Shown here: in pieces, positions 3,357-28,175 of the stretch
Numbering within the stretch: the first letter of the stretch is position 1
Layout of the letters: each line of letters opens with the position of its first letter
Origin: Alphaproteobacteria bacterium
Lineage (GTDB): Bacteria > Pseudomonadota > Alphaproteobacteria > Caulobacterales > Parvularculaceae
Length of the DNA stretch: 35,406 nucleotides
Assembly (NCBI GenBank): GCA_013151255.1
Contig: JAADIQ010000103.1
Coordinates: 1 to 35,406 of the forward strand
Reading direction: 5' to 3'
The notes under the pieces: generated by a model
The model's database searches: none
What the model was told of the DNA's origin: nothing
Seen by the model: the letters and a program-made list of their open reading frames with translations, nothing else
Program-made: the position numbers and the translations under genes

Positions 3357-4931
3357 ATGCATGGGCCCCGTCATATCGCGCTAATCGGCTGCGGCTTTAC
3401 CGGCACGAGCGCTTTTTATCAGCTTGTCGAGAACTATCCGGTCAAGGAGATTTCGATCTTCGAGGCCTCCGGCGTGTTCGGGCCGGGCTTTCCTTACCAG
3501 GAAGATGAGTGCCCGGATTATCTTATCAACAACACCACCGACACGATGTGCCTGGCGCCGTCTAACCGGCGGGCGTTTCTGAACTGGCTGGAACGCCACC
3601 GCGAATATGCACCTGACTTAGATGCGCAGGGCCATTTGCCGCGAAGCGTTTACGGCGCTTTCCTGAAAGATGTGTTCGCCTCGACGCTGACCTTGGCGGC
3701 GGTCAAAGGCGTTGCGGTTCGGCTGGTGGGCCATGAGGCGACGGTGATGCGCGAGGACGGCGACGGCGTGCATATTGGCTGGGAAGGCGGTGATATCACT
3801 GCTGATATGGCGATATTGACCACCGGCCGCTGCCCGGATGTTGGCGTCGAGATGGATAAAGCGCCGCGTGCGCGGGTGATCCAAAACCACATTATGTCGG
3901 ACGCGTTCGATGATATCGCGCTGGACGCAACCGTCCATGTGCTCGGCGCTTCGCTGAGCGCCTATGACGTCGTTAACAGATTGTTCTCGCCCCAAAGCGG
4001 TTGCCGGTTTGAGGCTTCGGACAATGGCGCGCTCAAATTTATGCCGGGCGCCAATAACCGTAGCGTGGTTTTGTGTTCGCGCAGCGGCCGCCTGAAAGCG
4101 GTGACCTCGCGCGCGCCGATGGCGATCACACGGAAGCATTTCACGATCGATGCGTTGCGCCAGGCGGCGCAAGAAAAGCCGCTGACGCTCGACGATGTGG
4201 CGCAAATGATAAGCCGTGATGCGAAGGACAATGGCGTCGAGCTCGACTGGCCGGCGATGGTGGAGCCTTACGCTGCTTGCCGGTCCGGCGAAGAGGTCAA
4301 CACTCGCGCCGGCATTTTGCTCGAAGCAGCGATACTGGCGGCGACGGCGCCCAAATCCAGCGCCGGAAACTTCCTGGTTGATTTCGCGCAGCATGCGCTA
4401 ATGGATATTTGGGATGCGTTTGCGGAAAACCTGTTGAGCGCCGAGGCGGAAAAACTCTATCGCGCGAAGGTTGAAACCGCGGCGCTGTGTTATGCGGCGG
4501 CCTGTCCGGCGTCGACAGCGCAAAAGCTATTGGCGCTGCACCGCGCCGGGCGCCTCCGCGTTGTCCGGGGGGTGAGCGACGTGCGCGTGGGGGAGGGCGG
4601 TGATTTCGCCATTCACCACGCGCATGGGGTCGAGCCGGCGAGCATCCTTGTGAACGCCACCGGCGGCGTTGACCGCAAGCTCGCCAGCAATGGCCAACCG
4701 GCGCTGATAAAAAGCCTCGTCGCGACAGGCTTGCTTGCGCCCTATGCGCGCGCCGGCGCAATTGCCCACGGCGCCGCGGTTGATATGAAAACTTTTCGAG
4801 CAATAGGCGCGAAAAACATTTACCTCGCGAACATGTTGCTGTGGGGGCCGGGGTTTTTCACCAGTTCGGCCTATTTAATGGCAAGCGTAGTGGAGCGTTT
4901 GCTTAAAGCGGCGTTTGAAAAACCATCTTAA
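3357..4931 (+). CDS. FAD/NAD(P)-binding protein, COG4529 (YdhS-like)
   Basis: 524 residues. The N-terminus MHGPRHIALIGCGFTGTSA is a Rossmann dinucleotide-binding motif (GxGxxG at residues 11-16), with the ribose-binding acidic residue at the end of strand 2 (ISIFEASG). FGPGFPYQ and NNTTDTMCLAPSNRRAF are typical of the NAD_binding_9/COG4529 group of soluble flavoproteins. A second dinucleotide region is near ATVHVLGASLSAYDVVNRL (about residues 190-208). The C-terminal part carries the expected ILVNATGG and NIYLANMLLWGPGFFTSSAY stretches. Substrate and pathway are unknown for the family. It lies three bases after the Lrp-family gene, suggesting a regulator-enzyme pair. The stop codon directly abuts repeat element R1a. 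Confidence 0.82.
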   Translation: MHGPRHIALIGCGFTGTSAFYQLVENYPVKEISIFEASGVFGPGFPYQEDECPDYLINNTTDTMCLAPSNRRAFLNWLERHREYAPDLDAQGHLPRSVYGAFLKDVFASTLTLAAVKGVAVRLVGHEATVMREDGDGVHIGWEGGDITADMAILTTGRCPDVGVEMDKAPRARVIQNHIMSDAFDDIALDATVHVLGASLSAYDVVNRLFSPQSGCRFEASDNGALKFMPGANNRSVVLCSRSGRLKAVTSRAPMAITRKHFTIDALRQAAQEKPLTLDDVAQMISRDAKDNGVELDWPAMVEPYAACRSGEEVNTRAGILLEAAILAATAPKSSAGNFLVDFAQHALMDIWDAFAENLLSAEAEKLYRAKVETAALCYAAACPASTAQKLLALHRAGRLRVVRGVSDVRVGEGGDFAIHHAHGVEPASILVNATGGVDRKLASNGQPALIKSLVATGLLAPYARAGAIAHGAAVDMKTFRAIGAKNIYLANMLLWGPGFFTSSAYLMASVVERLLKAAFEKPS

Positions 4932-5073
4932 TACCAACGGTCATAAAGAATGACCATTGGGCGTTCAAGCGCCACGCAGGCTATCGCGCCATAAGGCGCG
5001 GCGGCCAACCACAATGAACAATGGCGGCCTTGCCAAAGTACAAAATGAAAAGTTCATTTTGTACTTTGGTGTA
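4931..5073 (+). repeat. Structured repeat R1, copy a
   Basis: One of three copies (others at 13952-14080, inverted, and 28044-28175). Parts in order: hairpin 1, CCAACGGTCA / TGACCATTGG (4934-4960); a conserved core GCGTTCAAGCGCCACGCAGG and GCGCCATAAGGCGCGGCGGCC; a variable spacer; GGCCTTGCCAA; hairpin 3, AGTACAAAATGAA / TTCATTTTGTACT; then TTGGTGT. TGCCAA and TTGG flank hairpin 3 and extend its stem. This copy has a longer spacer (about 20 extra bases) between the two GGCC boxes than the other two. It begins at the last base of the preceding stop codon. Confidence 0.85.
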
Positions 5074-5189
5074 AACTCAAGCAGACTGACCTCACGCAAA
5101 CCAAACAGACGATAACTCCACGCCGGCAGCCATTTGTCTCGCACCCATAGCCGTTTGCGCTCCACACATTAACGCTTTGTTTACCTTCG

Positions 5190-5475: not shown

Positions 5476-5529
5476 GGTCCGAATTTTCTACTTTAATTAT
5501 GGACGTTGTTTTCTCTGTCGCCCCCCCTT

Positions 5530-5625
5530 CGACCGCTTCGCGGCCACTTCCCCCACCCCGACCGCGAAGGCGGTCGAATTATAATTAGCGCGCCTTCGCG
5601 CGCGGGCTGGGGGAAGAAAAGTGGC
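5530..5625. repeat. Multi-branched inverted-repeat element (R4)
   Basis: An outer stem forms between GCCACTTCCCCCA (5543-5555) and TGGGGGAAGAAAAGTGGC (5608-5625). Inside it are two perfect 6-bp hairpins, GACCGC-GAAG-GCGGTC (5560-5575) and GCGCGC-CTTC-GCGCGC (5588-5603), separated by the self-complementary AATTATAATT. A further hairpin, CGACCGCTTCGCGGCC, overlaps the left arm. The layout resembles a three-way junction. No coding content. Confidence 0.6.
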
Positions 5626-5644
5626 GCGGCAAGTACAACTTAAT

Positions 5645-5691
5645 TCCTCCCCCGTTTACGGGGGAGGTCACGAAGTGACGGAGGGGGCTCT
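5645..5691. repeat. GGGGAGG-type palindromic repeat (R3), copy a
   Basis: CCTCCCCC-GTTTA-CGGGGGAGG is followed by the short hairpin GTCACGAAGTGAC and the G-rich tail GGAGGGGGC. The same plan, with a different middle hairpin, recurs at 17929-17981 and, inverted, at 18051-18100. Confidence 0.6.
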
Positions 5692-8074: not shown

Positions 8075-8386
8075 GCTTTAGAGCCTGTTCCAAAACGAAC
8101 GGAGTCATTTCAATCCGTTAGCGTCGGTAAAACCTCCCTCGTGTCATTGCCGGACTTGTTCCGGCAATCCGGGGCTGCAAATAGTGGAAAGTTTCTGGAT
8201 CACCGGGACAAGCCCGGTGATGACAACGCTGATAATGCGTACTTCTTTTTGATTCAGACACTTAGATTTGCACTTCGACGCGGAATCTGCTTTGTGCCAG
8301 AACGCAAAAGTGCTTGTGCCGCAGTGATTCTCGTGATTCTGTCGGCGCCTGGCGTTTATTGAGTCGAAATCAAAAAGGATCGAGTA
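8075..8386. other. Non-coding spacer between nuoF and the HU-like gene
   Basis: About 310 bp with no convincing gene. It contains the GTCAT-bounded repeat (8143-8224) and, near its end, AAAAAGGATCGAGTA as ribosome-binding region for the HU-like gene at 8387. A frame at 8141-8362 on the plus strand runs through the repeat and is not credible as a protein. Confidence 0.65.
8143..8224. repeat. GTCAT-bounded double-hairpin intergenic repeat (R2), copy a
   Basis: GTCAT (8143-8147) and ATGAC (8220-8224) are inverted ends. Inside are two hairpins, TTGCCGG-acttgtt-CCGGCAA (8147-8167) and ATCACCGGG-acaag-CCCGGTGAT (8199-8221). This is the common alphaproteobacterial repeat style reading GTCAT...CCGG...GGATCACCGGG. 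A divergent relative is at 17345-17474. Confidence 0.7.
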
Positions 8387-13357: not shown

Positions 13358-13864
13358 ATGGAAAAAGACCAAACGCAATTTGTTGAGGAAATTCGCGCCA
13401 ATGTTGCGTTTGAACATCTGGTGGCGGCGATTGTCAGCGGTGCGGCGCTGGCGGCGGCGATCTTTTTTGTGCTGGATTTTGCCGCGCTGGTGTTTGCTGG
13501 CGCGCTTTCCGCGCCAAACTTTCTGGCGTTGATTTTAAAATCATTCACCTTGTGCATCATGGTGTTTCTGATCGGGTTTCTGGCCGGCGCGCTGATCGTG
13601 ACGCGGATGTTCAAGGCGCTTGAAAAAGCCAAACGCCGCAGCGTCTGGCCGTATCTGGCCGCCTCTATCGGCGTTACCGGATTTTCGTTGATCATGCTGT
13701 TCAGCCTGCAAAATGCCGGCGCGCCGGAGATGGCGTTGATTATTGCGGTCATCGCGGCGGGGCTTTTTATCGCCTTCGATTTCGGCCGTCGGATGTCGCC
13801 CTTATGGCGGGCGGTGGAGCGCGCTGAAGAACAGGCGGTAGGGACTGTGCGCCGGCTTCACTGA
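13358..13864 (+). CDS. Four-helix membrane protein of unknown function after nuoG
   Basis: 168 residues starting 14 bases after the nuoG stop, so likely in the same transcript. A short acidic N-terminus (MEKDQTQFVEEIRAN) is followed by four hydrophobic segments, about residues 20-45, 52-82, 98-116 and 124-144, and a basic/acidic cytoplasmic tail (RRMSPLWRAVERAEEQAVG). I do not recognise a family. It could be a complex I accessory protein by position, but it may equally be an unrelated passenger. Repeat R1c follows its stop by about 90 bases. Confidence 0.75.
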   Translation: MEKDQTQFVEEIRANVAFEHLVAAIVSGAALAAAIFFVLDFAALVFAGALSAPNFLALILKSFTLCIMVFLIGFLAGALIVTRMFKALEKAKRRSVWPYLAASIGVTGFSLIMLFSLQNAGAPEMALIIAVIAAGLFIAFDFGRRMSPLWRAVERAEEQAVGTVRRLH

Positions 13865-13951: not shown

Positions 13952-14080
13952 CATTACACCAACATGCACATGAGTAACTCATGTGCATGTTGGCAAGGCC
14001 AACTGGCCGCCGCGCCTTATGGCGCGTAAGCCTGCGTGGCGCTTGAACGTCCAACGGTCAATCTTTTGACCGTTGGTATA
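13952..14080 (-). repeat. Structured repeat R1, copy c (inverted)
   Basis: Read on the minus strand it gives the same order as copies a and b: TATACCAACGGTCA / TGACCGTTGG hairpin, the GTTCAAGCGCCACGCAGG core, GCGCCATAAGGCGCGGCGGCC, GGCCTTGCCAA, then a terminal hairpin CATGCACATGAG / CTCATGTGCATG flanked by TTGG. The terminal hairpin is entirely different in sequence from copies a and b but pairs perfectly, which argues that pairing, not sequence, is preserved there. The element ends 17 bases before the start codon of the first DUF2807 gene. Confidence 0.85.
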
Positions 14081-17315: not shown

Positions 17316-17344
17316 AGCGGTTTTAAGCCCAACCTCTCCTCGCC

Positions 17345-17474
17345 GTCATCCCGTGCGCAATGCGGCATGAAATGCCGCTTTGCAGACACGGGATCGCTAT
17401 CAGCGTGTTCAACCTGCTGTGGAGATCCCGGACCAGCGAAGCAACACTTCGTGTTGCATCGCATCCGGGATGAC
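17345..17474. repeat. GTCAT-bounded double-hairpin repeat (R2), divergent copy b
   Basis: Inverted ends GTCATCCCG (17345-17353) and CGGGATGAC (17466-17474). The left half folds as CCCGTG...CACGGG around GCGGCATGAAATGCCGC. The right half folds as GATCCCGGA...TCCGGGATGAC around GCGAAGCAACAC-ttcg-TGTTGCATCGC. Same plan as 8143-8224, with extra inner stems. Confidence 0.65.
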
Positions 17475-17510
17475 GAATAATTCCTTCTTCCATAACTCCC
17501 AACAGCGGCA

Positions 17511-17555
17511 AAACGCCGGCCCAAAAATTGGCCGCAGTTTTCGGGCCGGGCGTTT
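17511..17555 (-). terminator. Long hairpin, possible leftward terminator
   Basis: AAACGCCGGCCCAAAA and TTTTCGGGCCGGGCGTTT pair over about 15 bp with one or two bulged bases. On the minus strand the stem runs into GCGTTTTGCC, giving a short T-run; on the plus strand the tail is GCGTTTCAC. It could end a leftward transcript from the unassigned 17556-17900 stretch, or nuoI transcription on the plus strand. Confidence 0.4.
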
Positions 17556-17928
17556 CACTCTGTTGAGCGCCGGGGGCGAGAGGTTCGGCGCCGCGACAGC
17601 CAACTGAATGGGACCGACGGCGGCGCAAGGATTCACAATGTCAAACAGCCCACGCGAGCAAGCTTGATGCTTCCCGCGCATGAACGCCGTAAGGGCCTTG
17701 GGAGTGTTCGCGATGTCCCGTTGGGGAGCCAATCGCCTATGGGGTGGCCGCATCTCGACGTTGGAAGGAGTGTAAGGCCGCCCAAACCCGTGAGGATAAC
17801 TTTTCACCAAATATGGGTTTTATGGCCAACGACCCTCCTGGAGTTGTAAAATCGGAGAATCGATTCGTGTGGCGGTTGTGAGGAAATCGGTCGGTTTGAG
17901 CTTCCGCGAAGCCCGCGCCGCAGCATCC

Positions 17929-17981
17929 ACCTCCCCCTTGAGGGGAGGTCAAAAATGCACCGCATTTTTGGGTGGGGGTCA
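17929..17981. repeat. GGGGAGG-type palindromic repeat (R3), copy b
   Basis: CCTCCCC-CTTGA-GGGGAGG, then a middle hairpin AAAAATGC-ACC-GCATTTTT, then the G-rich tail GGGTGGGGG. Same plan as 5645-5691, with a different but still fully paired middle hairpin. Confidence 0.6.
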
Positions 17982-18050
17982 CGGCGATGCGTAACCGCCG
18001 GCGTTTGCAGAAAAGGCGACACCCATTCCCGGAATCCCGCTCTCCCGAAA

Positions 18051-18100
18051 TTCCCCCTCCCGAAATCAAAGATTTCGACCTCCCCTCAAGGGGGAGGTGA
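18051..18100. repeat. GGGGAGG-type palindromic repeat (R3), copy c (inverted)
   Basis: Reading leftward it repeats copy b: CCTCCCC...GGGGGAGG hairpin (18079-18097), middle hairpin GAAATC-AAA-GATTTC, and the G-rich strand opposite CCCCCTCCC. Copies b and c face each other about 70 bases apart, so the whole segment could fold into one large inverted repeat. Confidence 0.6.
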
Positions 18101-28043: not shown

Positions 28044-28175
28044 TACTGCCAACGGTCAAAAAGGATGACCGTTGGGCGTTCAAGCGCCACGCAGGCTTAT
28101 GCGCCATAAGGCGCGGCGGCCGGTCGGCCTTGCCAAAGCGCAAAATGAAAAGCTCATTTTGCACTTTGGTATTAC
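28044..28175 (+). repeat. Structured repeat R1, copy b
   Basis: TACTGCCAACGGTCA / TGACCGTTGG hairpin, GCGTTCAAGCGCCACGCAGG core, GCGCCATAAGGCGCGGCGGCC, GGTCGGCCTTGCCAA, then the terminal hairpin AGCGCAAAATGA / TCATTTTGCACT flanked by TTGG and TATTAC. Same orientation as copy a. It fills most of the gap between the DUF1467 gene and mgtE. Confidence 0.85.

Follow-up and report, generated by a model that had tools for sequence, protein, structure and literature searches.

The window analyzed here, a stretch of 35,406 nt, is contig C27 of a draft genome (G000; 3.12 Mb, 131 contigs, 92% complete). The genes in the window are ordinary and include those for an FAD-NAD(P)-binding protein, a thioredoxin-like ferredoxin, a DUF2807 protein, RNase J, and MgtE; the open reading frame (ORF) at 13358–13864 is without a Pfam family match at E ≤ 1e-5. 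The genus label used for the window and for its relatives G006, G010, G017, G020, and G022 is Marinicaulis, which NCBI lists under Hyphococcus, Parvularculales. Three copies of a hairpin-rich element (a, b, and c) are present in the window, with the following features:

4931–5073, plus strand: copy a of the element, long P4-loop form; site empty in G020, G007, and G010, occupied in G006
4934–4960, plus strand: outer hairpin P1 of copy a, from the fold
4961–5034, plus strand: conserved core of copy a (P2, P3, P4, and TTGCC), with an 18-nt P4 loop
5033–5069, plus strand: outer hairpin P5 of copy a, from the fold
4929–4930, no strand: left TA of copy a, presumed target duplication, within the TAA stop of ORF 3357–4931; occupied and empty alleles aligned by eye
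5072–5073, no strand: right TA of copy a, presumed target duplication, by eye
13954–14080, minus strand: copy c of the element, inverted; site empty in G006, G007, G010, and G020, no clean duplication readable
14051–14076, minus strand: outer hairpin P1 of copy c, from the fold
13992–14050, minus strand: conserved core of copy c, matched by the core model R2
13959–13993, minus strand: outer hairpin P5 of copy c, with re-paired sequence, from the fold
28046–28172, plus strand: copy b of the element; site empty in G020 and G007, occupied in G006 and G010
28049–28075, plus strand: outer hairpin P1 of copy b, from the fold
28076–28134, plus strand: conserved core of copy b, matched by R2
28133–28169, plus strand: outer hairpin P5 of copy b, from the fold
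28044–28045, no strand: left TA of copy b, presumed target duplication; GCAG-TA-[element]-TA-CGC when occupied versus GCAGTACGCC in G007, by eye
28173–28174, no strand: right TA of copy b, presumed target duplication, by eye

The original prediction had placed the three copies at these sites and had described a first hairpin, a core, and GGCCTTGCCAA as common to them; all were found so. Its observation that the last hairpin of copy c differs in sequence while remaining paired also holds. This hairpin is CATGCACATGAG/CTCATGTGCATG, unlike that of a and b, and pairing is retained in the fold of every copy. Copy a starts, as had been noted, on the final A of a TAA stop codon (4929–4931). Read from 5′ to 3′, the element consists of an ATACC foot, P1, P2 (GCGT-TCAnnCGCC-ACGC), and AGGCT on the left; P3 (CGCGCC-ATAA-GGCGCG), RCG, P4 (GGCC-AGTC-GGCC), and TTGCC in the middle; and P5, whose first CC is the end of TTGCC, followed by GGTAT on the right. 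It is ∼125–145 bp long with a core of ∼59 nt, and its inverted ends amount only to about TACC/GGTA. Folded as single-stranded DNA, the copies gave z scores of −8.2 (a), −5.8 (b), and −10.9 (c), and none of 200 dinucleotide shuffles of each folded as well. The element has no match over the gathering threshold of any Rfam family.

Other features of the window are recorded for completeness. The sole gathering-level Rfam match, to RF03135 (archaeal L4 ribosomal leader) at 1274–1354, lies inside ORF 52–1632, is barely over threshold, and is probably spurious. Segments 8078–8265, 17340–17475, 17504–17884, and 5523–5687 have strong folds and several to many matches in related genomes; these are further dispersed repeat families on the same contig. 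An inverted repeat of 27 bp, 96% complementary (CACCTCCCCCTTGAGGGG...), whose arms are separated by 118 nt, is present at 17928–18099.

An 18-base core pattern, allowing up to two mismatches, matched 11 places in the 3.12 Mb draft genome, and a reversed control pattern matched none. These 11 copies were used to build a covariance model (R1), which recovered the same 11 and a twelfth that is cut by the end of contig C101; its remaining matches re-read the same places, in part or in reverse. There are thus more copies than the three in the window, in the source genome and beyond it. The high genome-wide count that had been anticipated does not apply to the source genome, with 12 copies including the truncated one, but it does apply to some other genomes, such as that of bacterium MnTg02. 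With R1 at E ≤ 0.01, matches were obtained in 8 of 60 relatives, all in the window’s genus; within the genus, 8 of 28 genomes match, the source genome included and G009 only at E = 0.009.

Beyond the genus, a scan for the core in one genome per species yielded 86 stretches. Among the 80 listed, elements were found in Marinicaulis MAGs, Caenispirillum salinarum, C. bisanense, bacterium MnTg02, and Rhodospirillaceae ARS1032. Both Caenispirillum species belong to another order, Rhodospirillales, and MnTg02 is unclassified. Eight listed loci, in Gemmatimonas, two Bradyrhizobium, Chromatiales, Aureimonas, Myxococcales, Rhodanobacteraceae, and Ruminococcus, were rejected as chance matches in which the rest of the element is missing; a ninth locus of this group, L203, was kept. 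A covariance model of the core (R2) matched 17 of 385 genomes and 16 of 277 genera in a sample of the class at E ≤ 1e-4, which may be a lower bound because 14 candidates per genome were scored. By eye, the left half of the core is kept in nine of these 17 genomes, and mainly P3, P4, and TTGCC in the other eight. In a sample of the phylum, R2 matched 5 of 398 genomes, all five in Alphaproteobacteria and the source genome among them. Weak matches at E ≤ 0.05, the best at 3e-4, were obtained in 8 of 32 genomes of the same family and order; those in G029, G030, and G031 resemble right halves, and the remainder are doubtful. Copies range from one to well over 100 per genome. At E ≤ 1e-3, R2 gave at least 150 matches in MnTg02 (150 of 150 candidates scored), 137 in G285, 60 in C. 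salinarum, 13 in C. bisanense, nine in G369, and three in ARS1032, and four copies in MnTg02 form a tandem array. No match to the core pattern was found in viral contigs, nor to copy b in phage records, nor to a MnTg02 copy in plasmids; a C. salinarum copy as query gave one 35-bp plasmid match, on a Bosea plasmid, which covers P3–P4 only.

Several variant forms were encountered. In G314, locus L235 (∼1260–1575) holds a tandem array of three divergent copies at a spacing of ∼117 nt, and the P1 and P5 arms differ from copy to copy; judged by their translations, the flanking genes are presumably kbl- and tdh-like. In distant genomes, loci L332, L335, L337, L341, L344, and L346 seemingly contain the right half only (P3, P4, TTGCC, and P5), joined to other left ends. 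Longer forms in G017 (L093, 4945–5152, and L096, 5001–5167) carry an extra palindromic module of the GCGAAAAAC...TTTTTCGC type between P1 and the core, which we take to resemble a palindrome common in Rhizobiales. In C. salinarum, positions 5077–5199 of L136, ∼200 bp from a copy of the element, weakly match microRNA precursor models; because they match both strands, this segment is probably a long palindrome.

Comparison of orthologous sites revealed that the element is mobile. An empty allele was retrieved from a close relative at 15 of 16 sites examined, that is, at all three window sites and, with joined flanks as the query against five close genomes, at 12 of 13 further sites, from which 20 alleles were fetched and aligned. 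Only retrieved empty alleles were counted because the genomes are drafts. The thirteenth further site, L080, showed a partial match over the join (G007 C45, query 1874–2085 of 1874–2146) with a repetitive right flank and was left out of the count. The presence/absence differences between relatives that the original prediction had proposed as a check are therefore observed, and the empty alleles require a step of insertion or precise loss. Upon alignment by eye, TA, TAA, or TTA was seen on both sides of the element in 8 of the 15 empty-site comparisons (a, b, L105, L065, L068, L071, L100, and L074), most clearly at site b and at L105, where the element has TTA on either side. At the other seven (c, L060, L104, L072, L101, L102, and L061) no clean duplication was readable by eye, and L101 resembles an insertion without duplication. 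The sites, occupied or empty, are A/T-rich.

Copies in place also appear to exchange parts. In 8 of 11 orthologous groups with copies in at least two genomes, defined by BLAST of the flanks, the module type differs between orthologs, either in the P4 loop (short versus 17–18 nt) or in P3 (short versus long). Among 38 copies, 23 have an ortholog; the nearest relative is the ortholog for nine of these, a non-orthologous copy from a different genome for 13, and a copy in the same genome for one. Orthologous elements are 92.0% alike with gaps left out, compared with 88.4%–88.7% for other pairs of elements and 88.0% for the flanks of orthologs. The simplest reading of the module discordance is gene conversion between copies, as if they were overwriting each other; repeated insertion at one site could also account for it.

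The structure of the element is retained where its sequence changes. Over the 40 pairs in the source genome’s 11 copies, 97.0% of cells hold a standard pair, six pairs are changed on both sides, and two copies carry a compensatory change in P1 (CGGCCA/TGGCCG for CGGTCA/TGACCG). Across genera, 97.9% of core cells are paired in a set of 27 copies, and P4 occurs as GGCC/GGCC or GCGC/GCGC, with two of its pairs each changed on both sides in 11 copies. The covariation that had been sought in the hairpins is evident in the number of cells changed on both sides, 11 versus 2.9 in shuffles for the source genome and, across genera, 23 versus 8.7 for the core. The signal is less distinct in two weaker measures: in the source genome, additional pair types numbered 11 versus 9.7 (reached by 81 of 500 shuffles), and pairs with a both-sided change across genera numbered 3 versus 2.0 (reached by 19 of 500). 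In P5, six of eight predicted pairs are changed on both sides in 7–16 of 30 full copies.

To what extent the arms have been re-paired depends on the lineages compared. Computed swaps of P1 arms between lineages gave −0.6 to −12.6 kcal/mol, compared with −9.9 to −15.8 kcal/mol for swaps within a lineage and native means of −13.3 to −16.3 kcal/mol; for P5, swaps between lineages gave −3.3 to −16.7 kcal/mol and native arms −18.0 to −28.5 kcal/mol. P1 arms are interchangeable to some degree among MnTg02, G285, and Marinicaulis (swaps of −7.6 to −12.6 kcal/mol), so the re-pairing is complete for some pairs of lineages and not for all. Judged by these computed energies, re-pairing is strong for C. 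salinarum, G368, and G369 versus most others and modest among MnTg02, G285, and Marinicaulis. The core is held by sequence, and the outer arms P1 and P5, together with P4, are held by pairing; the shape of the element seems to matter.

The genomic context was compared in two groups, with gaps and orientations counted from a crude ORF caller. In MnTg02, the 30 gaps with an element comprise 17 convergent, 12 tandem, and one divergent, and the copies themselves 25 convergent, eight tandem, and one divergent. Convergent gaps are enriched there (17/30 element gaps versus 9/76 other gaps; Fisher p = 5e-6) and divergent gaps are rare (1/30 versus 17/76; p = 0.02). In Marinicaulis, divergent gaps are likewise rare (4/33 versus 38/121; p = 0.03), but convergent gaps are not enriched (7/33 versus 22/121; p = 0.8), so that only the rarity in divergent gaps is common to both. 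Relative to tandem genes, Marinicaulis copies lie in the same orientation in 10 cases and in the opposite one in 11. C. salinarum, where 9 of 17 copies fall inside a called ORF, was left out of the gap control.

Selection on RNA or DNA structure, as in a small non-autonomous mobile element or a dispersed RNA motif, had been proposed at the outset, and the further copies, the empty sites, and the covarying hairpins support it. Between these two forms, we consider it probable that the element is a non-autonomous, MITE-like mobile element of ∼125–145 bp, spread over several lineages of Alphaproteobacteria, in which P1 and P5 enclose a hairpinned core. It is small, dispersed, and present or absent at orthologous sites, as is expected of a MITE. 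A functional RNA motif, for example a 3′ UTR terminator, an RNase site, or an mRNA stabilizer, whose structure the host keeps and whose mobility is secondary, is an unlikely explanation, although the stable multi-hairpin fold and the enrichment in convergent gaps of MnTg02 are what it would predict. Its sites differ between close species, the orientation and convergent gaps of Marinicaulis show no preference, and no Rfam family is matched over threshold. Selection on one transcript strand is expected to make G-U pairs outnumber A-C mismatches. In 163 copies, which are related by descent so that no p value is attached to the counts, G-U exceeds A-C in P5 (112:57) as the RNA motif would require, but not in P1 (20:34), which speaks against a pure RNA explanation for P1. 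An ordinary dispersed repeat, generated by recombination and drift and kept paired only through homogenization by gene conversion, is very unlikely. Modules common to non-orthologous copies would fit such a repeat; the empty alleles demand insertion or precise loss, and the compensatory changes between genera in P4 and P5 are not explained by homogenization alone.

The MITE-like reading calls for an enzyme from elsewhere, the element being too short for a transposase gene. Two transposase families were searched, DDE_3 (IS630-type) and Y1_Tnp (RAYT), and no mobilizing enzyme was picked out from them. DDE_3 was not found in the source genome, a draft that is 92% complete; G285, MnTg02, and C. 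salinarum each gave one or two matches. Locus L263 of G285 ends in an element-like core, ∼1.5 kb away from the DDE_3 gene, and the density of elements in this genome is about one per 17 kb. Exact inverted repeats of 14 bp separated by 600–2500 bp were looked for in L263–L265 and not found. An IS630-derived MITE, as in RUP, was rejected since neither DDE_3 in the draft source genome nor matching ends in L263–L265 were found. That the element is of the REP/REPIN type and is moved by a RAYT through single-stranded hairpins is extremely improbable. Hairpins at both ends would suit this mechanism, a single-strand transposase would impose pairing over sequence, and Y1_Tnp was found in three of eight bearers searched (G006, G010, and G285, the last with 137 R2 matches and both families). 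Against it, Y1_Tnp was not found in the drafts of the other five (G000, G020, MnTg02, C. salinarum, and C. bisanense), and a letter search of the loci around the three Y1 genes gave no full element among the matches listed. Longer copies that carry a gene were likewise absent among the matches listed for the MnTg02 and C. salinarum loci that were fetched. In these loci, 56 P1-like matches in MnTg02 and eight in C. salinarum lacked a core where one would be expected; among those listed (25 of 56 and 8 of 8), most represent a reverse reading of the palindrome, and a few are truncated copies or chance matches.

If the element is indeed MITE-like, an enzyme supplied in trans may read its folded form, as an extruded cruciform, a single strand, or a transcript, and not long terminal inverted repeats. 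The outer arms P1 and P5 would then be specific to each lineage, copies in place would swap internal modules by gene conversion, and the rarity in divergent (promoter) gaps may reflect selection against harmful insertions. A bolder extension, which we hold to be rather doubtful, is a transposition system found throughout the class Alphaproteobacteria, with a putative new enzyme whose substrate is a folded strand, either DNA or RNA, in which the core is conserved and the re-paired outer hairpins are specific to each lineage.

Among known repeats, the CIR elements (Caulobacter CcrM-associated intergenic repeats), reportedly described by Chen and Shapiro in 2003, would be the closest kind and the best match in architecture, as compared by description. 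In the excerpts of the source that were available, CIR elements are ∼110 bp long and intergenic, have two long inverted-repeat arms with a linker and TA termini, occur in several alphaproteobacteria including Caulobacter and Brucella, carry a GANTC methylation site at the terminal loop of one arm, and have a mobility that is unexplained (PMC2229807). By that partial description, the element shares with them two hairpin arms joined by a linker, the size class, 5′TA3′ ends, an intergenic position, and an alphaproteobacterial host (PMC2229807). GANTC is above chance in P5 of MnTg02 (39/74 copies versus 9.1 in shuffles) and was seen in P1 of 5/17 G285 copies versus 1.6 in shuffles, but it is at chance level in Marinicaulis (P5, 5/38 versus 4.5 in shuffles; P1, 0/37) and scarce in C. 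salinarum (P5, 1/21; P1, 1/26). The element was not filed as CIR because GANTC does not mark its arms in Marinicaulis and C. salinarum as it does in MnTg02. The weak R2 matches in the same family and order also count against membership, which may be held possible though somewhat improbable; it would be compatible with the MITE-like reading and concerns the name. A common origin with CIR is a live possibility.

Other systems are more distant. ERIC is a dispersed repeat of ∼127 bp with 5′TA3′ ends, a target duplication, and tens to hundreds of copies, and the element resembles it and other bacterial MITEs in small size, dispersal, 5′TA3′ ends, and copy number, as far as the available portions of the sources go (PMC2229807, PMC10969869). 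In contrast to the other repeat families outlined in the same excerpts, which form one stem-loop by pairing of the 5′ and 3′ ends, and to ERIC and other bacterial MITEs, the element has its own hairpin at each end around a conserved core (PMC2229807). BOX of Streptococcus pneumoniae, from what is given of it in the text available, is likewise a modular composite repeat with a predicted RNA structure and variable internal modules, but it belongs to a different phylum and varies in the number of boxB, whereas the element varies in P3 and in the P4 loop (PMC3049150). ERIC and BOX may be regarded as analogues of the element. RIME (Rhizobium-specific intergenic mosaic elements, Osteras 1995) are said to be palindrome-containing mosaic repeats of alphaproteobacteria. 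Br-REP1 and Br-REP2 of Bradyrhizobium are alphaproteobacterial intergenic palindromic repeats, Br-REP1 being the middle of three stem-loops, but the consensus sequences given in the part of the source at hand bear no resemblance by eye to the core of the element (PMC5082802). No title or abstract describing this core was found among the papers listed from one open-licence library, and absence from print is not claimed; three papers that matched the core string concern, judged by their titles, CTCFL, a rhinovirus assay, and Babesia.

Even if it proved a member of CIR, the element would add a core common to two orders, re-paired arms, empty sites, and module exchange. Bacterial MITE-like repeats are mostly defined by their terminal repeats within a genus or family. 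A core that persists between orders, with ends that are re-paired between lineages, provides a comparative handle on what the mobilizing machinery reads. The copies of MnTg02, at least ∼150 in number, together with the 38 full copies and numerous empty sites of five closely related Marinicaulis MAGs, make movement of the element directly testable.
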